Shown here: positions 27,552 to 36,886 of the stretch, piece by piece
Layout: every line of letters starts with the position of its first letter
Numbering within the stretch: position 1 is the stretch's first letter
Assembly (NCBI RefSeq): GCF_003050935.1
Contig: NZ_QAOX01000006.1
Span: 124,001-188,000, forward strand
Source: Luteibacter sp. OK325
GTDB taxonomy: Bacteria > Pseudomonadota > Gammaproteobacteria > Xanthomonadales > Rhodanobacteraceae
Reading direction: 5' to 3'
Length of the DNA stretch: 64,000 nucleotides
Program-made: the position numbers and the translations under genes
The notes under the pieces: generated by a model
What the model was told of the DNA's origin: nothing
The model's input: only the letters and a program-made list of their open reading frames with translations
The model's database searches: none

Positions 27552-27855
27552 GGGTGATTGGCTCCGAAAATACTCATAGAAAGTGTTGAGAAAAACCTCA
27601 AACGTCTGCGATAGTGAAGATTAATGACGCTAAACGTCGTTAACGCGCCCGATGGATGGGCACGTTATCGGTCACCCATTGCACTTCCATGACAGTGGCA
27701 AGCCGCGCCAGGCCGCGCAGGTTTCTGCGTTGCAACACTTCCGTCATGACCACGTCACAAGGGATAATTCGCAAAGACGCGCCCTCGCCAGGGGACCGGC
27801 TCGAACGCAGTTGGCGAGGCACTCTCACCCCAGCACCTCCCAGGCGGAACACACC
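27552..27855. other. 304-bp divergent regulatory region (porin / TonB receptor)
   Basis: Non-coding stretch between two outer-membrane protein genes reading outward. It contains one clear inverted repeat (27621-27643, listed separately) in an AT-richer patch. I see no RNA gene or convincing small ORF in it. Both promoters should lie here. Confidence 0.6.
27621..27643. promoter_or_regulatory. Inverted repeat, candidate operator
   Basis: TTAATGACG (27621-27629) and CGTCGTTAA (27635-27643) are inverted arms matching at 8 of 9 positions, separated by CTAAA. The site lies about 70 bp from the porin start and 210 bp from the receptor start, in an AT-rich patch. The length and symmetry fit a dimeric repressor or activator; the protein is unknown. 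Confidence 0.5.
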
Positions 27856-30114
27856 ATGTCTCTCGTTAGCTCGCGCCGTATGCCGCGACGTCTCGTTATT
27901 GCCCTGTCCATCGCCACGGCACTCACCGCTGGCTCGGCCATGGCCCAGGACGCCGCGCCCACTGCCCCGAAGGTCAAGACGGCCACGCTGGAGACGGTCA
28001 CCGTCACTGCTGAAAAGCGCACGGAAGACCTGCAGAAGGTGCCCATCTCGATGACCGTGATCACGGCCGAGAAGCTCGAAGCGTTCGGCCAGTCCGGTGA
28101 CGGTGTGCTCCAGCTCGCCGCCCGCGCGCCGAGCGTGTATGCCGAGACGTCGTATGGCCGCGAGTTCCCGCGCTTCTACATTCGCGGCCTCGGCAACAGC
28201 GACTTCGACCTCAACGCGTCGCAGCCGGTATCGATGGTTTACGACGACATCGTCCAGGAAAACCCCATCCTCAAGGGCTTCCCGCTGTTCGATCTGGAAC
28301 AGGTGGAAGTGCTGCGCGGCCCGCAGGGCACCCTGTTCGGCCGTAACTCGCCTGCTGGCGTGATCAAGTTCGAATCGCGCAAACCGACGCAGGAAACCGA
28401 GGGCTACGCCCGCGTGTCTTACGGCTCGTACGGCACGGCCAATGCCGAAGCCGCGCTCGGCGGCAAGATCAGCTCCGACTGGTCCGGCCGCGTGTCCGCG
28501 ATCGCCCAGCACCGTGATGGCTGGATCGACAACGATTACAAGGGCAAGAAGGACGACCTCGGCGGTTACAACGACCGTGCCGTCCGCCTGCAGGCGCTGT
28601 ACAAGCATTCCGACGATTTCGACGCCCTGATCAACGTGCACGGCCGCCTGCTCGATGGTAGCGCCATGGTCAACCGCGCCAACGCGATCACCCTGGGCAG
28701 CGACCAGTTCGTGCAGGGCTTCGATCGCGACTCGGTTTCGCAGGACGGCAACAACAAGCAGCACCTGTTCACCTGGGGCAGCAACCTGCACCTGAACTGG
28801 CACTTCGGCGATCTCAACTTCACCTCGATCACCGGCCTCGAGCGCGCACAGACCTACAGCCTGGGCGACGTCGATGGTGGCTACGATGCTTCCGAGACAC
28901 CGGCCCGCCCGAGCGATACCAACCGCGTCACGCCCTTCTATTCCGAGACCGCGGACGCCCTGCCGAAGGATCGCCAGATCAGCCAGGAGTTCCGTCTGTC
29001 CAATGACAGCGCCGAGCGCCTGAAGTGGCAGGTCGGTACGTATTACTTCGACGAAGACGTCGCGATCACGAACTACTCGTACGACACACTGAACAACCAC
29101 GCCCTCAACGGCCTGGTCGACCAGAGCCAGCACACCAAGGCCTGGGCGCTGTTCGGCTCCACCGACTATCAGTTCACCGACGTGTTCGACGTCCGCGCGG
29201 GCGCCCGCTGGTCGCACGACAAGCGTGACTTCAGCGCGGAGCGCTTCATCGGCTTCACCGGCCCGGTGGGCCCGCTCACCTCCAAGCCGACCGACTCGCG
29301 CTGGAGCGGCGACCTCACCGGTACCTGGCAGCTGTCGAAGAATGCGAACGTGTACGCACGTGTCGCCAACGGTTTCCGCGCACCCAGCGTGCAGGGCCGG
29401 ATCAACTTCTCCAACAGCATCTCGACGGCGAGACCGGAAACGGTCACCTCGTACGAAGTGGGCTTCAAGTCGACCACGGAAGACAACAAGCTCCGTTTCA
29501 ACGCCGACGTCTACAAGTACAACATGCACAACCAGCAGCTGACGGCAGTCGGTGGTGCGAGCAACGTCACCGAGCTGATCAACGCGAAGAAGACCGAAGG
29601 CTACGGTGCCGAGTTCGATCTCGAGGCCTACCTGACGCCGCAGTTCTACATGACCGCCGGCGGCAGCTATAACCACACCGAGCTGAAAGACAAAAACCTG
29701 GCCATCGCGCCATGCGGTGGTGGCTGCACCGTGCTCGATCCGCTCAATGCCTCGGGCAATGCGCTGATCGACGGCAACACGCTGCCCAACGCGCCGCAGT
29801 GGATCGGCACCTGGACCGCGCGCTACGGCATCCCCTACGGCGAGAGCGGCGAGTTCTTCGTCTACACCGACTGGAACTACCGCAGCGAAGTGAACTTCTT
29901 CCTGTACGACTCCGAAGAGTTCAAGAGCAAGCCCTTCCTCGAAGGCGGCATTCGTGTCGGCTACAACTGGGACTTCGGCAAGCGCGAGATCGCCCTTTAC
30001 GGTCGCAACATCACCGACAAGAAGGTGATCACCGGCGGTATCGACTTCAACAACCGCACGGCCTTCGTCAACGACCCGCGCATTATCGGCGTGGAGTTCC
30101 GCGCGGAGCTGTAA
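27856..30114 (+). CDS. TonB-dependent outer-membrane receptor
   Basis: A receptor of 752 residues. The ATG at 27856 gives a signal peptide (PRRLVIALSIATALTAGSAMAQ, about residues 10-31). A TonB-box-like segment lies at ETVTVTAEKRTEDL. The plug domain contains QVEVLRGPQGTLFGRNSPAGVIKF (about 150-175, split here by Gly-rich turns). The 22-strand barrel follows and ends GVEFRAEL, with Leu rather than the usual Phe at the C-terminus. The plug style (VPISMTVITAEKLE) matches the large group of Xanthomonadales/sphingomonad receptors that import carbohydrates, terpenoid or siderophore-like ligands. The ligand is not predictable here. A strong terminator follows at 30140. Confidence 0.93.
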   Translation: MSLVSSRRMPRRLVIALSIATALTAGSAMAQDAAPTAPKVKTATLETVTVTAEKRTEDLQKVPISMTVITAEKLEAFGQSGDGVLQLAARAPSVYAETSYGREFPRFYIRGLGNSDFDLNASQPVSMVYDDIVQENPILKGFPLFDLEQVEVLRGPQGTLFGRNSPAGVIKFESRKPTQETEGYARVSYGSYGTANAEAALGGKISSDWSGRVSAIAQHRDGWIDNDYKGKKDDLGGYNDRAVRLQALYKHSDDFDALINVHGRLLDGSAMVNRANAITLGSDQFVQGFDRDSVSQDGNNKQHLFTWGSNLHLNWHFGDLNFTSITGLERAQTYSLGDVDGGYDASETPARPSDTNRVTPFYSETADALPKDRQISQEFRLSNDSAERLKWQVGTYYFDEDVAITNYSYDTLNNHALNGLVDQSQHTKAWALFGSTDYQFTDVFDVRAGARWSHDKRDFSAERFIGFTGPVGPLTSKPTDSRWSGDLTGTWQLSKNANVYARVANGFRAPSVQGRINFSNSISTARPETVTSYEVGFKSTTEDNKLRFNADVYKYNMHNQQLTAVGGASNVTELINAKKTEGYGAEFDLEAYLTPQFYMTAGGSYNHTELKDKNLAIAPCGGGCTVLDPLNASGNALIDGNTLPNAPQWIGTWTARYGIPYGESGEFFVYTDWNYRSEVNFFLYDSEEFKSKPFLEGGIRVGYNWDFGKREIALYGRNITDKKVITGGIDFNNRTAFVNDPRIIGVEFRAEL

Positions 30115-30139
30115 GGCTTTCGCGACATCGATCGGCCAA

Positions 30140-30173
30140 CGGCCGGCCCTTTGCAGGGCCGGCCGTTTTCGTT
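30140..30173 (+). terminator. Rho-independent terminator of the TonB receptor gene
   Basis: An 11-bp perfect GC stem, CGGCCGGCCCT / AGGGCCGGCCG, with a TTGC loop, is followed by TTTTCGTTT. It lies 25 bp after the receptor stop codon. Confidence 0.9.
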
Positions 30174-30189
30174 TGGGGTCGCCAAACCC

Positions 30190-30272
30190 TGTAGGAGCCG
30201 ATTCATCGGCGATCCCGCATCAGCGGGCAAGGTTCCCGCTAACTCCCATTCGCCGCTGAAGCGGCTCCCACA
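30190..30272. repeat. Paired short palindromic repeat (mixed type)
   Basis: A left GATTCATC-type copy (GTAGGAGCCGATTCATCGGC) and a right inverted GCTTCAGC-type copy (CGCCGCTGAAGCGGCTCCCA) enclose CGCATCAGCGGGCAAGG. One base of the left arm is changed (GTAGG for GTGGG). Confidence 0.85.
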
Positions 30273-30381
30273 GGTCTGCGCAGGGCTCGCCTAAACCTTT
30301 CCGCCCAAAGCCGCATCAGAGCTAGTGCCACCGACGCACCCCACCAGCACAGCGCGGCACGGCATAGGCCATAAGTCATAT

Positions 30382-30442
30382 GGAATTTCACGAAATTCCG
30401 GTTGACGACCGAAAATCTGGTGTTATAGTTCACTACAACACC
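30382..30442 (+). promoter_or_regulatory. Promoter with a YtrA-type GGTG-N16-CACC operator
   Basis: A -35 TTGACG (30402-30407) and -10 TATAGT (30424-30429) are 16 bp apart. Overlapping the -10 is the dyad 30419-30442, GGTG at one end and CACC at the other with exactly 16 bases between, and 10 of 11 arm positions paired. GGTG-N16-CACC is the site reported, as I recall, for a YtrA-type GntR regulator in Xanthomonas citri. The operon encodes such a regulator, so this is probably its autoregulatory site. Just upstream, GGAATTTC-AC-GAAATTCC (30382-30399) is a second, perfect palindrome that could bind another factor. Confidence 0.75.
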
Positions 30443-30472
30443 GGTCACCCACACCACCACTGGAGTAGCACC

Positions 30473-30658
30473 ATGAAAAACAACCTCAACCTCGCCGCCC
30501 TCGCCGCCGCCTTTGCCATCGCCACCGCTTCCCTGGCCGGCTTCCACAGCACCTCCACCACCGCCGCCCCGATCAGCGAGATCAACGGCACCCACGTCAC
30601 CGACCTGGCCCCGATCGTTGTCTACGCCGACGCCGACGCCAACGTCGCCTCCCTGTAA
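30473..30658 (+). CDS. Short exported peptide (61 aa) of the GntR-ABC operon
   Basis: Begins MKNNLNLAALAAAFAIATAS, a hydrophobic N-terminal segment resembling a Sec signal or anchor, preceded by GGAG at a good distance. The C-terminal part contains INGTHVTDLAPIVVYADADA, which aligns with VNGVRVVDLPALEVRPTDAD in the next gene. It is the first gene after the GGTG-N16-CACC promoter and therefore the most highly expressed product if the operon is induced. No known family; a role as a small envelope peptide, ABC substrate, or signal is inference. Confidence 0.75.
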   Translation: MKNNLNLAALAAAFAIATASLAGFHSTSTTAAPISEINGTHVTDLAPIVVYADADANVASL

Positions 30659-30696
30659 CCCCTGAAGACCTGCAGCAAAGTCATCGGAGTCGAATC

Positions 30697-31032
30697 ATGA
30701 AAGCGCCGAACCTCATCGCACTCACCGCCTCTGTACTGATCGCCGGAACCAGCGTGTTCGCCCTGCGCTCCTTCGATGACCGCGCCGCTGCACTGGTCGC
30801 CGCACCCCATTTCGTCAACGGCGTCCGCGTCGTCGACCTGCCTGCTCTCGAAGTGCGGCCCACCGACGCCGATGTGCGCGAGGCAGCCCTGGCCAGCGAG
30901 GCCACCCTGGATTCGGCAGCTGCCGCCATCAAGCGCAGCGCGGAAGATCGCGCCGCTGCACTTATCGGCGCGCAGCTGGCCATGCCCTACTATTCGTTTG
31001 GTAATGCACTGCGCCGCACGGCCAAGGATTAA
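30697..31032 (+). CDS. Exported protein (111 aa), paralogue of the preceding peptide
   Basis: Begins MKAPNLIALTASVLIAGTSVFA, a signal-peptide-like start with GGAG upstream. After it, VNGVRVVDLPALEVRPTDAD repeats the motif [IV]NGxxVxDLxxxxVxxxxAD of the first peptide. A longer, Ala-rich helical tail with SEDRAAALIGAQLA (also similar to DDRAAALVAAP earlier in the same protein) follows. It ends 3 bp before the GntR gene. Unrecognised family; the shared motif suggests both products bind the same partner or target. Confidence 0.75.
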   Translation: MKAPNLIALTASVLIAGTSVFALRSFDDRAAALVAAPHFVNGVRVVDLPALEVRPTDADVREAALASEATLDSAAAAIKRSAEDRAAALIGAQLAMPYYSFGNALRRTAKD

Positions 31033-31035
31033 TAC

Positions 31036-31410
31036 ATGTCCATCACCTGGAACGACAGCGTCCCGATCTACCGCCAACTCCGCGAACGCGTAGTGGCGAT
31101 GATCCTGGACGGCGCCTTGAACGAAGGCGACCCGCTGCCGTCGGTACGCCAGGTCGCGGGGGATTTTCAAATCAACCCGCTGACCGTTTCCAAGGCGTAT
31201 CAGGAGCTGGTCGACGAACAACTGGTTGAGAAACGGAGGGGTCTTGGCATGTTCGTTATCGATGGGGCGCGCGATGCGCTGCTCAAGAGTGAAAGGGAGC
31301 GCTTCCTGCGCGAAGAATGGCCGGCGCTGTTTGCCCGCCTCCAGCGCATGGGCCTAGACCTCAAGACTTTGATGCGTGAAGCCCAGGGCTCCACGGAGGA
31401 TCCGTCATGA
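31036..31410 (+). CDS. GntR family regulator, YtrA subtype
   Basis: A 124-residue regulator: the wHTH (SVPIYRQLRERVVAMILDG, GDPLPSVRQVAGDFQINPLTV, then LVEKRRGLGMFV) occupies the first 75 residues. A short C-terminal helical extension follows, with no large effector domain, which defines the YtrA type. These dimeric repressors control ABC transporter operons in which they sit. The stop overlaps the ABC ATPase start by 4 bp (ATGA), showing coupling. Predicted to bind the GGTG-N16-CACC site at 30419-30442. Confidence 0.92.
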   Translation: MSITWNDSVPIYRQLRERVVAMILDGALNEGDPLPSVRQVAGDFQINPLTVSKAYQELVDEQLVEKRRGLGMFVIDGARDALLKSERERFLREEWPALFARLQRMGLDLKTLMREAQGSTEDPS

Positions 31411-32264
31411 CCGCGGTCGTTACCGCCACCGGCCTGAGCAAACGCTACAAGTCGTCGCAGGCTCTGGACGGCGCCAGCTTCCAGATCGGGTCGGGCCGCA
31501 TCGTCGGCCTGATCGGCCCAAACGGTGCCGGCAAGACCACGGCACTGAAGGCCATCCTCGGCCTGACCACCTTCGAAGGCCAGCTCAACGTCCTCGGCCT
31601 GGATCCGCGCAAGGATCGCGACAAGCTGATGGAACAGGTCTGCTTCATCGCCGACGTGGCAGTCCTGCCACGCTGGATCCGGGTGAAGGACGCCGTCGAC
31701 TTCGTCGCCAACACACACCCCCGCTTCGACCGTAGCAAGTGCGATGCCTTCCTGGCCCGCACGAAGCTGCAGCCGCAGCAGAAGGTGAAGCAGCTGTCCA
31801 AGGGCATGATCGTGCAGCTGCACCTGGCGCTGGTGATGTCGATCGACGCCCGCCTGCTGGTGCTGGACGAGCCCACGCTCGGCCTGGACATCCTCTATCG
31901 GAAGCAGTTCTACCAGAGCCTTCTGGAAGACTACTTCGACGAAGAGAAGACCATCCTGGTCACTACCCATCAGGTCGAAGAGATCGAACACATCCTCACC
32001 GACCTCATGTTCATCCGCGACGGCAAGATCGTGCTCGATACCGACATGGACAGCCTGGGCGAGCGTTTCGCCGAAGTGCTGGTCGGCGCCGAGTTCGCAC
32101 ACGCAGCCCGGGAACTGAAGCCGCTTGATGAGCGCCAGGTCTTCGGCAAGAGCATTTTCCTCTTCGACAACGTCAGCCGGCCCGAGCTGGAACGCCTGGG
32201 CGAGGTACGACGCCCGTCGATCGGCGACCTCTTCGTCGCCACCATGAAGGGCACCTACGCATGA
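31407..32264 (+). CDS. ABC transporter ATP-binding protein
   Basis: A 285-residue ATPase with Walker A GPNGAGKTT (37-45), Q-loop near VCF (78-80), ABC signature LSKGM (130-134, in place of LSGGQ), Walker B LLVLDEP (150-156), D-loop GLD, and switch His in VTTHQVEEIEHI. The C-terminal ~70 residues follow a pattern common in YtrB/CcmA-type exporters. It overlaps both neighbours by 4 bp (ATGA). Probable function: powering the downstream permease to export a lipid, peptide or antibiotic-like molecule. Confidence 0.93.
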   Translation: MTAVVTATGLSKRYKSSQALDGASFQIGSGRIVGLIGPNGAGKTTALKAILGLTTFEGQLNVLGLDPRKDRDKLMEQVCFIADVAVLPRWIRVKDAVDFVANTHPRFDRSKCDAFLARTKLQPQQKVKQLSKGMIVQLHLALVMSIDARLLVLDEPTLGLDILYRKQFYQSLLEDYFDEEKTILVTTHQVEEIEHILTDLMFIRDGKIVLDTDMDSLGERFAEVLVGAEFAHAARELKPLDERQVFGKSIFLFDNVSRPELERLGEVRRPSIGDLFVATMKGTYA

Positions 32265-33223
32265 AAACCTTCTACTGGCTGGTCAAGCGCGAGTTCTGGG
32301 AACACAAGGGTGGCTTCTTCTGGGCCCCGGTGGTCACCGGCATCGTCTTCCTCGTGCTCAACGGCATGGGCATCGTCCTTGGCGAAGTGTTCGGGCGGCG
32401 ATTCGGCGGCCTGCAGTTCGGCGGCGGCAATGTCCACCTGCAGAGCGACATGAGCCTGGCGGATCTCCGAAACGCGGGAGCCGGCATCGACATCATGCTC
32501 TACGCCGTCGCCGCCATCATCCTGGGCGTCACCGCCATCGTGGTCTTCTTCTACTGCCTGGGTGCGCTCTACGACGACCGTCGCGACCGCAGCATCCTGT
32601 TCTGGAAATCGCTGCCGCTGTCGGATTCGTCCACCGTACTGTCCAAACTGGCGAGTGCCGCCCTCCTCGCTCCCGCCATCTCCATCGTCGTCGGCGTGAT
32701 CGTGGGGCTGGTACTGGCAATGTTCCTGGCCGTTGTCGCCCTGGTTCATGGCATCAACCTCTGGACCCTGCTGATGGCGGCGCATCCGTTCCGCGTCGTG
32801 GGCACCCTGGTGCTGCTGATCCCACTGTATGCAATCTGGGCGCTGCCGACGCTGGGCTGGTTACTGCTCTGCTCGGCCTGGGCGAAGAGCAAGCCGTTCC
32901 TCTGGGCTATCGCCCTGCCAGTGGGCTCCGGCGTCATCGTCTCCTGGTTCGGCCTGATGGGTGTGCTCAACCTTTCGAGCGACTGGTACTGGAAGAACGT
33001 GGTCAGCCGCCTTCTTGGCAGCCTGATTCCGGGCAGCTGGGTCGGCAATGCCTCGCCGCTGGTCATTTCGGACCACTCCGATCCATCCGCGATGCTCAAC
33101 AGCCTCGACCTGGCCTACCACTACAGTGCCCTTGCCAGTCCGTCGCTCTGGATCGGCGCCATCGCCGGCATCGCGATGATCGCCGGAGCCATCTGGTTCC
33201 GCCGCTGGCGGGATGAAAGCTGA
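32261..33223 (+). CDS. ABC transporter permease (ABC-2 type, YtrC/D-like)
   Basis: A 320-residue membrane protein with about six transmembrane segments (roughly residues 22-45, 88-110, 135-160, 180-205, 213-235 and 290-308). It opens with KTFYWLVKREFWEHKGGFFW, typical of ABC-2 permeases associated with GntR/YtrA operons. Two consecutive loops carry RRDRSILFWKSLPLSD, a conserved ABC-2 feature. Overlap of 4 bp with the ATPase supports one transcript; a terminator follows at 33236. Confidence 0.9.
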   Translation: MKTFYWLVKREFWEHKGGFFWAPVVTGIVFLVLNGMGIVLGEVFGRRFGGLQFGGGNVHLQSDMSLADLRNAGAGIDIMLYAVAAIILGVTAIVVFFYCLGALYDDRRDRSILFWKSLPLSDSSTVLSKLASAALLAPAISIVVGVIVGLVLAMFLAVVALVHGINLWTLLMAAHPFRVVGTLVLLIPLYAIWALPTLGWLLLCSAWAKSKPFLWAIALPVGSGVIVSWFGLMGVLNLSSDWYWKNVVSRLLGSLIPGSWVGNASPLVISDHSDPSAMLNSLDLAYHYSALASPSLWIGAIAGIAMIAGAIWFRRWRDES

Positions 33224-33235
33224 TAACGATGCAGC

Positions 33236-33265
33236 GACGGCCCCTTCGGGGGCCGTCTTGCTTTC
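33236..33265 (+). terminator. Rho-independent terminator of the GntR-ABC operon
   Basis: A 9-bp stem GACGGCCCC / GGGGCCGTC with a TTCG loop (33236-33257) is followed by TTGCTTTC. It starts 13 bp after the permease stop. Confidence 0.88.
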
Positions 33266-33349
33266 AGGGGTTCCTGGTAGACAGAAAGACGGGCAAGGTC
33301 TAAAAACCAAGGCGACACGAGCTTGCGTCCACCGCAGGGGATCCTCGCC

Positions 33350-36300
33350 ATGACGACCGAAGACGCCGCCCCAGCGGAGCCCATCGCGGAGAGCGAACGC
33401 AACGCACTGGCTGGACGCCGCGCCGCTGCTCGTATCGACCCCGCCGCGCCGCGCATAGGGCTCGCCTTGTCCGGCGGCGGCATTCGTAGTGCCACGTTCT
33501 GCCTTGGCGTACTTCGCGCCCTCGCCCGCAACAAGGTGCTGCATCGCTTCGATTACCTCTCCACCGTGTCGGGCGGCGGCTATATCGGCTCGGCCTTCGG
33601 ACGGCTGTTCCACGAAGGCTCCGAGGGCGATCCCACAGCCGTAGAAGCGGGAATCGCCAACGACGGCTCACTGTTTCTCTGGTGGCTACGCAACAACGGT
33701 CGCTTCCTTGCGCCCGCGGGTGCTGCGGACCTGGTTCAGGCGCTGGCCAGCCAGCTACGCGGCTTTCTCGCCACCCAGGTGGAAACCGCGGTCCTGATCA
33801 TGCTGTTCGCCTGTGCAATCACCCTGCCGCACCTCGCTTATTCGTTCGCCTATGCGGTCAGCGACGGTTTGCCCGTCTCCATGAGCCTCTGGTGGTACTG
33901 GGTGTTGCCCCTTCCTGCCGCGGGCGCGGTGACCATGTGCTATGCGTACTGGTTTCTCGGTAAGGAGACCGGCGGAGGCCTCGCCACGGCGATGCTCGCG
34001 ACGGTCGTCGGCGTCTATCTCGCCGTGCAGGCCCATGCGACTCAACTCGCCTTCGATGGCGTTCTGCTATCGCTCGGCGCCATCGGCATGCTGCCCTCGC
34101 CCGTCGCCTGGATCTGTGCTCGCGTCAGTGGGCTTCGGCGCTCCGAGGAAACCAACCGCGTCCGCTATACCAAGGCACTGGCGTGGTGCCTGAAGGCCAT
34201 GGCGGTGGTCTTCGCCTTTGGCGTACTCGATATGCTCAGCTGGACCACGCGCCTGTGGCTGCAGCAGCTCGGCGGCGACCTCGCCAGTGGTCATGTCGCC
34301 ACGGGTGTCGGCATCACCACGGTGCTGATCGGCATTGCGCGTTTCATCCTGCCGATGCTGCAGACCGGCAGCAAGAACGGTATCGCGAAGCTGCCGTGGG
34401 GCATGCTGGCCAACATCCTCGGCCTGATCCTGGTCATGGCCCTGGCGCTGTTCTGGATGACCATTTTCCAGACCGTCATCTTCCCGAACGCCGGTGACGA
34501 CCTTGAGGGACTCCTGCACAATGCCTACGCGCGCTGGGGCACGGTGGCCGCGATCAGCCTTGTCTACGTACTGCTCAACGGCCGGGCGCTGCAGCAGCTC
34601 AACCGCTCCTCGCTGCATTTCTACTATCGGTCCCGCATTGCGCGTGCCTATGTGTCGGTGGGCAACATCAAGGGATCCGCCACGACGTGCCCGCGCTTCC
34701 CCGATAGCCCTATGGTGGCGAACACGCGCACGCTCACCGAGGGAACGGCGAAGGTCACCTCACTCATGGACGGTGACGACACGCCCATGACGAACTACAC
34801 ACCGCACCGCTTCGGCGGGCCGATCCACCTCGTGAACTGTTGCATCAACCAGACCGTCGACGATCGCACGGGCACCTATAACGCGGATCGCAAAGGCATC
34901 AGCCTTACCGTCAGTTCGCTCGGCGTCGAAACCGGGACGCATGCCGTCGAGCCTCAATCGAACACCTTGCTGAGGTCGACGACGGTCGCCGAATGGATTG
35001 CGATCTCCGGCGCTGCCCTGGGTTCGGGCATGGGCTCGCTGACCCGGCCCGGGACCGCGGCGATGGCCTTCCTCAGCGGCCTGCGCCTGGGCTATTGGCA
35101 AGACAACCTGACCGTTGGCTACGTGAAAAAGCGCGGCCTCGTGCGCAAGTACTTCGCGATGCTGCGCGAGATGTTCGCCCGTTTTCCGGGCCTTGGCAGC
35201 CCTGACTGGTATTTGTCCGACGGTGGGCACTTCGACAACACGGGCGTCTACGCGCTGCTGAAACGGGAACTGTCGCTGATCGTGCTCGCCGACTGCGGTG
35301 CCGACCCGGACTATCGCTTCGCCGATGTCGAGAACCTGGTGCGCAAGGCGCGCATCGATTACGACGCGACCATTTCGTTCGTCGACCCTGCCGGTCTCGC
35401 CGCCCTGGCCGGGCCGCTGGCGACCCTGTTCGGCACGCCCGATTCGATTTCGAACGGGCCGGGCGAGGCGCACCTGCTGCTGGCGCGAATCGCGTACGCG
35501 AGTGGCGGCCACGGCACGCTGCTCATCGTGAAGCCGCGCACCACCATTGACATGCCGCTGGACGTCGCGGGATACGCGGACCGCGAGGAAACGTTTCCCC
35601 AGCAGAGCACGAGCAACCAGTTCTTCAGCGAAGAACAGTGGGAAAGCTATTGCGAGCTCGGCACGATCCTCGGTGCGCCGATCGATCCGTCCCTGCTCAA
35701 CCACCTGCCTTCATGGGCGTGGAGCGCACCGGTGATCGGTGCCAATTCGGCGTTGCTGTCGCCGACGACCACGCCGCTGACGCGTACGCAGCGCATCGCC
35801 ACCACGGTCGGCACATCCATCGGTATCGGCGCCCTCCTGACCGCCGTGCTCGCCGGCTGGCAGGCCTGGGACGCGCACAAGCAGCAAATGGTCGAAGTCC
35901 GCGCAGCCGGCATCGCGCAGGCAAAGGAAGTCAACGACCAGGTGAAGAAGGTGCTCGACGATCTCGATGCCGCCGAGCAGCAGTACTCGGCGTTCACGCC
36001 GAAGCTGGACGTGACGCTCAACGGGCTCATGCTCGAGATTGCCAATGTACCGCTGAGCGACGAACAGACGGCCAGCCTCCAGGACGTCGCCAACCTGCTA
36101 TCGCCCATCTGCAACCGCACACCGGATGGCAACCTGCAGGACCAGTGCACGAAGGACCTGACGCGCTTTGCGGGAAGTAGCGTGGCTCCTGGCAGCTTCT
36201 GGGATGTCTCGATGAAGAATTACATGGGCTGGCGGGATCCGCAGGCCGTGGCCTTCGTCTCGGCAAGGACGCATGCCGAGACCACCAACGACATGGATCC

Positions 36301-36886
36301 AGGCGGGTCGGTGAACACCGGTGCAGGGCCCTCCCCCGCCCCTGCCGCAGTGAGCCCCCCGCCGCCACCGCCTGCATCCGTCGCCGTCGCCACGATTACG
36401 CCGGCATTGCCAGATGAGATGGGACCGCCTCCCGCGCCGCCACCGCCGATGCCTTCAAGGGCGGCGGCCGCGAAACCCGTGTCCCTTCCGGTCGATGTGA
36501 CTCAGTTGCACAAGACGGCACTCGACGCCTGCAGCCAGAACGGCCAGTCCTTCATGCTCTACACGCAGATCTACGACGAAGCGCAGCGTGCCGACGTGTT
36601 GAAGAGCCTGACGCCCGTCCGCGAGCTGGGTATCAACGTGCCCGGCATCGAGAATGTCACCCAGACCGCCAAACGCAACGGACGCCATGCACCGTTCGAG
36701 TGGAAGACGCCTACCGTGCTCTACGCACCCGACGGCAAGGCCTGCGCCACCGCCCTGGTCAACTGGGCAAACGCAGCCATTCCCGCACTGGCACGTGCGC
36801 CAGCGCGGGCGATCGCCATGCCCCCGGGTGTGGGTACGGCCAACACGCTCGAACTGTGGATTCCGCGACCAAGGGCAAAGAACTAG
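33350..36886 (+). CDS. Very large patatin-like phospholipase with an inserted membrane domain
   Basis: A 1178-residue protein from the ATG at 33350 (an upstream TTG is less likely). Patatin motifs are split: oxyanion loop GLALSGGGIRSATFCLG and nucleophile Ser (about residue 74) in STVSGGGYIGS at the N-terminus, then the catalytic Asp (about 624) in LSDGGHFDNTG. Between them, about 144-410 holds roughly seven hydrophobic helices. A further helix (about 818-840, IGIGALLTAVLAGW) precedes a charged helical segment, a Pro-rich linker (about 988-1040) and a compact C-terminal domain (QIYDEAQRADVLKSL, ending LELWIP). Likely a membrane phospholipase or acyl hydrolase; no known system partner adjoins it. 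Confidence 0.85.
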   Translation: MTTEDAAPAEPIAESERNALAGRRAAARIDPAAPRIGLALSGGGIRSATFCLGVLRALARNKVLHRFDYLSTVSGGGYIGSAFGRLFHEGSEGDPTAVEAGIANDGSLFLWWLRNNGRFLAPAGAADLVQALASQLRGFLATQVETAVLIMLFACAITLPHLAYSFAYAVSDGLPVSMSLWWYWVLPLPAAGAVTMCYAYWFLGKETGGGLATAMLATVVGVYLAVQAHATQLAFDGVLLSLGAIGMLPSPVAWICARVSGLRRSEETNRVRYTKALAWCLKAMAVVFAFGVLDMLSWTTRLWLQQLGGDLASGHVATGVGITTVLIGIARFILPMLQTGSKNGIAKLPWGMLANILGLILVMALALFWMTIFQTVIFPNAGDDLEGLLHNAYARWGTVAAISLVYVLLNGRALQQLNRSSLHFYYRSRIARAYVSVGNIKGSATTCPRFPDSPMVANTRTLTEGTAKVTSLMDGDDTPMTNYTPHRFGGPIHLVNCCINQTVDDRTGTYNADRKGISLTVSSLGVETGTHAVEPQSNTLLRSTTVAEWIAISGAALGSGMGSLTRPGTAAMAFLSGLRLGYWQDNLTVGYVKKRGLVRKYFAMLREMFARFPGLGSPDWYLSDGGHFDNTGVYALLKRELSLIVLADCGADPDYRFADVENLVRKARIDYDATISFVDPAGLAALAGPLATLFGTPDSISNGPGEAHLLLARIAYASGGHGTLLIVKPRTTIDMPLDVAGYADREETFPQQSTSNQFFSEEQWESYCELGTILGAPIDPSLLNHLPSWAWSAPVIGANSALLSPTTTPLTRTQRIATTVGTSIGIGALLTAVLAGWQAWDAHKQQMVEVRAAGIAQAKEVNDQVKKVLDDLDAAEQQYSAFTPKLDVTLNGLMLEIANVPLSDEQTASLQDVANLLSPICNRTPDGNLQDQCTKDLTRFAGSSVAPGSFWDVSMKNYMGWRDPQAVAFVSARTHAETTNDMDPGGSVNTGAGPSPAPAAVSPPPPPPASVAVATITPALPDEMGPPPAPPPPMPSRAAAAKPVSLPVDVTQLHKTALDACSQNGQSFMLYTQIYDEAQRADVLKSLTPVRELGINVPGIENVTQTAKRNGRHAPFEWKTPTVLYAPDGKACATALVNWANAAIPALARAPARAIAMPPGVGTANTLELWIPRPRAKN

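Follow-up and report, generated by a model that had tools for sequence, protein, structure and literature searches.

A small leader protein with an aromatic C-terminal tail, and its tail-less paralogue, in a YtrA/HpaR1-type regulator-transporter operon of Luteibacter sp. OK325

This study concerns a 64,000-nucleotide (nt) stretch of DNA from Luteibacter sp. OK325 (hereafter the window, to which all coordinates refer) and, within it, five consecutive genes that encode two small proteins, which we call P1 and P2, a GntR-family regulator of the YtrA type, the ATPase of an ATP-binding cassette (ABC) transporter and an ABC-2-like permease. As judged from sequence comparison, P2 is a member of a fast-evolving family of small leader proteins with an aromatic C-terminal tail. 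It is this leader family and its tail that are new here, the regulator and operator half of the unit being already known; overall, this is a regulator-transporter operon that is known in part and whose leader family has been overlooked. As for what P2 does, we rank as most likely the reading in which it is a small accessory of the transporter made along with it, and consider as most interesting the one in which the small proteins engage TonB. The genes and motifs on which the argument turns are the following.

30697..31032, plus strand: P2, 111 aa, the conserved leader, with an N-terminal anchor or signal, a central motif and a C-terminal tail
30829..30864, plus strand: central motif of P2, VVDLPALEVRPT, with a weak TonB-box similarity by matrix scoring
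30982..31002, plus strand: C-terminal tail motif of P2, MPYYSFG, residues 96-102, from regular expression and alignment
30473..30658, plus strand: P1, 61 aa, a tail-less paralogue found in Luteibacter, with a hydrophobic N-terminus and one TonB-box-like motif
30596..30631, plus strand: TonB-box-like 12-mer of P1, VTDLAPIVVYAD, from matrix scoring
31036..31410, plus strand: GntR-family regulator of YtrA type, 124 aa, the presumed ortholog of Xanthomonas HpaR1/YtrA
31407..32264, plus strand: ABC transporter ATPase, from domain searches
32261..33223, plus strand: ABC-2-like permease, with a Pfam score under the cut-off and a structure model
30419..30442, strand-neutral: 24-bp operator GGTG-N16-CACC of YtrA/HpaR1 type, GGTGTTATAGTTCACTACAACACC, covering the -10 element

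The sequence-only reading of this locus had expected both small proteins to travel with the genes for GntR and the ABC transporter. For P2 this is borne out, since it stands ahead of GntR in all 110 loci compared (80 selected on GntR alone and 30 on P2), whereas 86 of these 110 loci have no P1. In a profile search of 299 genomes of the order, P2 was found in 83, namely in 72 of family f1, 10 of f2 and one of f4 (we denote families by such numbers throughout). Among 34 more distant or unfetched places picked up by the same profile, 24 (23 in f1 and one in f4) have GntR, ATPase and permease directly downstream, and the remaining 10, all in f2, hold a repeat protein with no such trio in the vicinity; of the 23 distant f1 loci, which were chosen on P2, L168 is the same place as L023. 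Ten f1 genomes had been missed by one of two earlier searches. GntR is present in nine of these, eight times in a whole locus, always with a tailed leader by eye and in seven cases with the strict operator pattern described below, while the ninth locus is cut; the f1 genome G078 has neither GntR nor P2. In families f2-f12, the trio of GntR, ATPase and permease was found in 36 of 36 loci. An f2 leader, its frame lengthened by 15 residues at the upstream end, retrieved 23 relatives in a protein search; two of these had a name, in both cases "hypothetical protein".

The tail was scored near the ends of open reading frames (ORFs) that stop about the GntR start, by a regular expression that was set after the first sequences had been seen and that asks for P, mostly Y or F twice, and mostly S and F (P-Y/F-Y/F-S-F type). 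It matches in 157 of 157 loci of f1, a count that includes repeat fetches (121 distinct 40-residue ends) and loci found via P2 itself, as well as in 20/20 loci of f2, 2/2 of f3, 6/6 of f4 and 5/5 of f12. If one takes only the loci chosen on GntR, the tail is present in 112 of 112 from these five families (80 in f1 and 32 in f2, f3, f4 and f12), and it is also present in all nine f2, f4 and f12 loci fetched after the expression was fixed (L219-L227). In the controls, the same expression matched 1/214 on the antisense side and 24/1070 shuffles. In five other families of the order no match was seen in 15 loci (f5 0/3, f7 0/1, f8 0/4, f9 0/3, f10 0/4); in all 15, as read by eye and without scoring, the leader ORF begins with a hydrophobic stretch near the N-terminus and has a different, hydrophobic end.

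P1 and P2 are, on sequence grounds, true paralogues. Namely, BLASTP aligns them with an E value of 2e-4, a profile of eight P1 sequences matches one of 11 non-Luteibacter P2 sequences with 98.3% probability (E 1.2e-14, 54 columns), and the P2 profile run against the proteins of its own genome returns P2 and P1 only at E <= 10. A chance likeness was dropped on the BLASTP and profile-profile scores, and the earlier proposal of two related peptides, for which a profile-profile comparison had been suggested, is thereby upheld. The motif that they share had been described as C-terminal in both; it is so in P1, but in P2 it lies centrally, at roughly residues 37-59 of 111, and P1 has no counterpart of MPYYSFG, which marks the C-terminal part of P2. 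The N-termini, earlier called signal-like, are indeed hydrophobic and of the Sec-signal or anchor type in both proteins, with a 19-residue hydropathy of at least 1.6 in 107 of 110 P2 and 23 of 24 P1 sequences. Neither Pfam nor NCBIfam holds a family for P1, and P2 has only sub-threshold matches in them; an AlphaFold model of P2 was poor, with a predicted local distance difference test score (pLDDT) of 62.6 and a predicted template modelling score (pTM) of 0.21, and unfit for structure search. The ratio of nonsynonymous to synonymous substitution rates (dN/dS) has a median of 0.20 for P2 and 0.61 for P1 (19 sequences each; these are simple pairwise estimates on short genes). P2 thus looks to be under purifying selection, and P1 is weakly but seemingly constrained.

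A separate P1 is present in 24 of the 110 loci: in all 23 Luteibacter loci, which include the window and some species twice and hold 18 distinct P1 sequences, and in one locus of another genus (L023), whose P1 carries two motif copies. A database search with P1 gave 36 candidates that were scored, nine of them with an organism name, namely eight Luteibacter and one "Rothia". Some relatives of P2 or P1 bear odd database names (P0001, P0008 and P0178: alpha/beta hydrolase, an acyltransferase and Rothia nasimurium). We dropped the idea that P1 is a pseudogene, its frame being open in 23 of 23 Luteibacter loci with 18 distinct sequences and a dN/dS of 0.61, and also the idea that the peptide pair is a conserved unit, given that a separate P1 was found only in Luteibacter and one locus of another genus and that a single leader is the norm elsewhere.

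The regulator is probably HpaR1/YtrA of Xanthomonas: it occurs across the order, with one hit per genome in 140 of the 144 genomes that have a hit, and its operator is the same as that of X. citri YtrA. Its N-terminal winged helix scores 53 bits on PF00392 (residues 12-74 of 124), and its best relative in the PDB is 3tqn (113 aa). Members of the YtrA subfamily are about 120-130 aa long, and the regulator of the window, at 124 aa, fits this range. The palindrome at 30419-30442 is long (about 24 bp), with distant half sites, as is usual for YtrA-type regulators. Domain, length and a matching 24-bp operator on its own operon all agree with the YtrA type first assigned to this protein. GntR was found in 144 of 150 genomes of the order at E <= 1e-15, in single copy in 140, and, at E <= 1e-22, the class as a whole gave 12 genomes out of 229, nine of them outside the order; within Luteibacter, eleven records (L036-L046) have a GntR 94-100% identical to that of the window. 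YtrA sites are typically 24 bp, and the YtrA-like regulator of X. citri recognises GGTG-N16-CACC (PMC6746942). HpaR1 and YtrA of two Xanthomonas have been treated as one regulator (PMC7831014), HpaR1 corresponds to XC_2736 (PMC8995066), and it is reported from nearly all Xanthomonadales save Xylella (PMC8546981). At the gumB promoter HpaR1 is described on another, closely spaced repeat, which differs from the operator seen here (PMC4730234).

The operator itself is closely tied to this operon. Of 214 loci, counting repeat fetches, 208 have the strict pattern GTGT-N14-ACAC in the 720 nt that precede GntR, compared with four matches in the other 1,464,983 nt of these loci; it is missing upstream of GntR in L036, L184, L207, L215, L216 and L218. 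Two f1 loci, L036 and L308, have leader and GntR without the strict pattern in their upstream stretch. With two patterns tried, the sole operator site found in the genome of Luteibacter sp. OK325 is the one ahead of its own operon. With a relaxed pattern, each of five f1 genomes has a single site and each of five f2 genomes has two and no more; a reversed control pattern gave none in the same ten genomes. As for the transporter, the permease scores 22.1 bits on PF13346, under the Pfam cut-off of 25; its structure model (pLDDT 78, pTM 0.75) has no match in the PDB at E <= 0.001, and the weak matches include ABCG proteins.

Direct reading of the DNA gave the five genes at the coordinates and lengths first proposed, with a promoter and operator ahead of them and a terminator-like stem behind. 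P1 and P2 are 38 nt apart and P2 and GntR 3 nt, after which GntR and ATPase, and likewise ATPase and permease, overlap by ATGA, as had been stated for the ABC genes. Such spacing suggests that the five genes would share a single transcript. The remaining elements of the unit are as follows.

30402..30429, plus strand: promoter-like TTGACG-16 bp-TATAGT, from a consensus scan and the conserved -35 spacing
30138..30167, plus strand: terminator-like stem-loop after a TonB-dependent receptor gene, the upstream border of the unit, from a consensus scan only
33236..33257, plus strand: terminator-like stem-loop at the end of the unit, from a consensus scan only

Taken alone the promoter-like match is weak (one found against 0.7 expected in shuffles). 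Its -35 element TTGAC, though, keeps the same spacing to the operator in 118 of the 126 distinct upstream regions of f1, compared with 18 of 48 in other families. The proposed placing of GGTG-N16-CACC over the -10 is confirmed. We dropped the possibility of a mobile element, gene order and operator being constant across the order; the G+C content, 0.60-0.67 over 28000-36000 in steps of 500 bases, shows no visible break and argues against it as well.

In f2 the picture is extended by a second locus. Namely, each of the five f2 genomes has its second operator site 29-30 nt ahead of the gene of a secreted-looking protein, and in 10 of 10 f2 loci with such repeat proteins an upstream GGTGT-N14-ACACC is the best operator match, with scores of 13-24 against a median of 49 for the sites at leaders. 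The proteins behind this second site (those of L238, L240, L241, L242 and L244) have three or four repeats of LPxVxVRPSA type, with the look of tandem TonB boxes. Three f2 repeat proteins match the NCBIfam family XAC0231 (NF052303) with 65-72 bits, under its cut-off of 140, and P2 reaches 15.2 bits, far from membership. The pattern GGTG-N16-CACC is said to come from Zhou, Yan and Wang (2017), whose abstract reportedly names XAC0231 among the direct targets of X. citri YtrA. By eye, the leaders of f1 and some of those in f4 and f12 (L146, L186, L187) carry motif and tail together, and f2 has them apart. Judged from distribution rather than from a tree, P1 in Luteibacter looks like a second, independent parting of the two. 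Outside the order, in L211 (family f51), three copies of the motif can be read by eye in a leader of 165 aa, which takes up roughly the stretch from 550 to 50 bases upstream of GntR; GntR and operator are of the same kind there.

What, then, could P2 do? In the reading that we prefer, with a probability of roughly 0.48, the locus is a self-repressed envelope operon of YtrA/HpaR1 type and P2 is a small, YtrG-like accessory of the co-made transporter. A GntR dimer sitting on the palindrome over the -10 would keep the unit shut off, and its release, perhaps upon envelope stress by analogy with Bacillus YtrA, would let the cell make one or two small proteins, more repressor and the ABC-2-like transporter. 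P2 would be the ancestral leader. Its N-terminus would face the cytoplasm, followed by a single hydrophobic signal or anchor, and a short stretch in the periplasm would lead to the conserved aromatic tail at the C-terminal end; it would sit at the inner membrane, in the operon position of Bacillus YtrG, and could contact the transporter. P1 would be a Luteibacter duplicate that kept anchor and central motif and lost the tail. What was observed, and what this account is built on, is the gene order, the homology, the operator, the conservation of the tail and its absence from P1. That said, several points weigh against P2 as an accessory. Its contact with the transporter is argued from the company of genes and not from physical evidence, and the hydrophobic N-terminal stretches leave cleaved signal and membrane anchor indistinguishable here. 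The leader is also far more variable than the permease, unlike an obligate subunit, with a mean column identity of 43% against 62%. Of nine loci outside the order, one gave a tailed leader by the regular expression, a match that is not credible, and two have no space for a leader between operator and GntR. Finally, YtrG itself is not among the predicted components of the B. subtilis transporter (PMC12772383), which tempers our confidence in the accessory role.

A different role, one we take seriously although it is unlikely, would be that of endogenous TonB-box peptides: P1, the motif-bearing leaders and the repeat proteins of XAC0231 type would each expose a strand resembling a TonB box in the periplasm, and TonB would engage it instead of the receptors; similarly unlikely is the effect that could follow, in which relief from GntR would lower or redirect the TonB-driven opening of outer-membrane importers. 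There is a precedent for such interference: a TonB-box peptide is reported to bind TonB with a dissociation constant of 9.4 uM, and TonB action has been blocked by adding the pentapeptide ETVIV to the medium, along with a bacitracin phenotype (PMC5413942), which makes an inhibitory role of a TonB box physically reasonable. For scoring, 12-residue TonB-box matrices were built from 30 of 56 plug-domain hits in the own genome (the Luteibacter matrix; leave-one-out median 18.4, 10th percentile 8.3) and from 30 of 70 in the f2 genome G233 (the f2 matrix; 23.9 and 11.0). The 12-mer of P1 scores 17.2 on the Luteibacter matrix, near the receptor-box median and reached by none of 1000 shuffles, which makes it TonB-box-like, but only 8.6 on the f2 matrix, under the 10th percentile (10/1000 shuffles). 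P2 of the window scores 3.8 on the former (208/1000 shuffles), and is thus not TonB-box-like there, and 10.7 on the latter (4/1000), just below the 10th percentile. A score of at least 8.3 on the Luteibacter matrix was reached by 23 of 24 P1-type and 78 of 110 P2-type proteins, which are mutually related and hence not independent cases, against one of 297 control ORFs. These controls came from the same loci, were 55-170 aa long with a hydrophobic stretch at the N-terminus, and were filtered on position alone; they were called mechanically, and many of them are not genes. A first control had excluded ORFs by motif, which favours the claim, and gave 3/339. In an earlier, rougher scoring with several anchors mis-set, P1 (17.8) stood behind only the receptor gene (21.6), and the next among the 51 other window genes was at 7.7. 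The best repeats of five XAC0231-type proteins, which lie behind an operator as described, score 13.3-21.0 on the f2 matrix (0-3/1000 shuffles) and 8.3-15.8 on the Luteibacter matrix, where two of the five are no better than shuffles (161 and 176/1000). Against this role one has to set, besides the low scores, that the likeness was spotted before it was scored, that by eye no such motif is seen in the leaders of several families, and that binding is argued from sequence likeness, to which a short beta strand may converge. On this view the box would be split off in cis (P1 in Luteibacter) and in trans (XAC0231 type in the Xanthomonadaceae-type f2), which may point to a separable working part. 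The wider proposition is that bacteria of the order would make their own TonB-box peptides (one to four boxes, in the periplasm), which YtrA/HpaR1 would switch on together with the transporter; by occupying TonB, these peptides would curb or redirect import across the outer membrane during envelope stress. This we hold to be a little less likely still.

Could the peptides rather be cargo of the ABC exporter, that is, secreted signals or small antimicrobial peptides with GntR as the sensor? An exporter does lie in the same operon, and on NCBIfam the top match of the ATPase is PmtA and the second match of GntR is PmtR, both far under their cut-offs. However, the Sec-type N-termini would by themselves carry P1 and P2 into or across the inner membrane and make an inner-membrane exporter needless, P1 is missing from most of the loci, and none of the five genes is one for modification or immunity (no search for such genes was made elsewhere). 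The suggestion of the sequence-only reading, secretion or signalling through the ABC exporter, is therefore left unsupported, and we consider cargo improbable. Least probable of all, to our mind, is that the leader frames serve only translation coupling or regulation in cis and yield no working protein. One could cite for it that the leader stops 1-7 nt upstream of the GntR start in 181 of the 191 loci with a tail match, and the weak constraint on P1, with its median dN/dS of 0.61; but the tail is conserved as protein across five families, P2 has a dN/dS of 0.20, and no Rfam family was found at gathering threshold within 29900-33400. Neither TonB-box leaders nor the tail family were met in the open-access literature searched.

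Around the operon, the TonB-dependent receptor upstream (27652-30114, plus strand) holds, in its TonB box, the top segment among the window genes scored, and a relative of this receptor lies upstream in 18 of 23 Luteibacter loci, some of which are short. Downstream (33323-36886, plus strand) a 1187-aa protein has a patatin-like N-terminal part with 28.5 bits, barely over the Pfam cut-off of 27.7; we dropped it as an operon member, as a terminator-like stem lies between. In addition, a contig labelled Candidatus Eremiobacteraeota (L047) bears a Dyella-like operon with a GntR 93% identical to that of the window, and is probably misplaced.

YtrA/HpaR1 has been studied in Xanthomonas chiefly for virulence, and its operator is kept across families of the order, soil genera included. 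What follows the conserved operator is an ABC transporter with a small membrane protein, and this would place the old job of the regulator at the envelope. The aromatic tail, being the most constant part of the leader, is a clear target for mutation, and should the TonB-box likeness be functional, it would offer the cell a route, not met in the literature searched, to control all TonB-driven importers at once.

How does this unit compare with known systems? Staphylococcal Pmt likewise has a small GntR beside ABC genes and supplies the PmtA and PmtR matches, yet the equivalog cut-offs are far off (PmtA 141.2 against 350 bits, PmtR 51.8 against 200). The genes for the Pmt cargo peptides lie elsewhere, and these peptides are not known to have Sec signals. 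A GntR-ABC operon of Acinetobacter has other genes and an activating GntR (PMC13104710). With the TonB boxes of receptors and colicins the 12-residue hydrophobic strand following an N-terminal hydrophobic stretch is shared, P1 also by score; P1 and P2 differ in having no plug or barrel and no known partner. The f2 relatives of the XAC0231 family (NF052303) share the N-terminus and the LPxVxVRPSA motif with P2-type leaders, but differ from P2 by two to four motif copies, an absent tail and a separate locus. To HpaR1/YtrA of Xanthomonas our system is close in its YtrA-type GntR, its operator and its order-wide, mostly single occurrence (140 of 144 genomes with a match), and negative autoregulation is reported there (PMC8546981); in Luteibacter, on the other hand, one operator site was found, before its own operon. 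HpaR1 is also reported as a positive regulator of many processes, which a site over the -10 as in Luteibacter does not suggest, and leader genes and tail are not mentioned in those parts of the Xanthomonas HpaR1/YtrA literature that were available. There is also ytrGABCDEF of Bacillus subtilis, where a small transmembrane protein, the YtrA repressor and an ABC transporter are likewise encoded in one operon, albeit with two ATPases, two membrane subunits and YtrF as opposed to one ATPase and one permease in Luteibacter (PMC12772383). The likeness of YtrG and the Luteibacter leaders is drawn here from their position in the operon. The combination that marks a Ytr-type operon, a small membrane protein with YtrA and ABC genes, is found here as well, with the leader read by eye in some loci.

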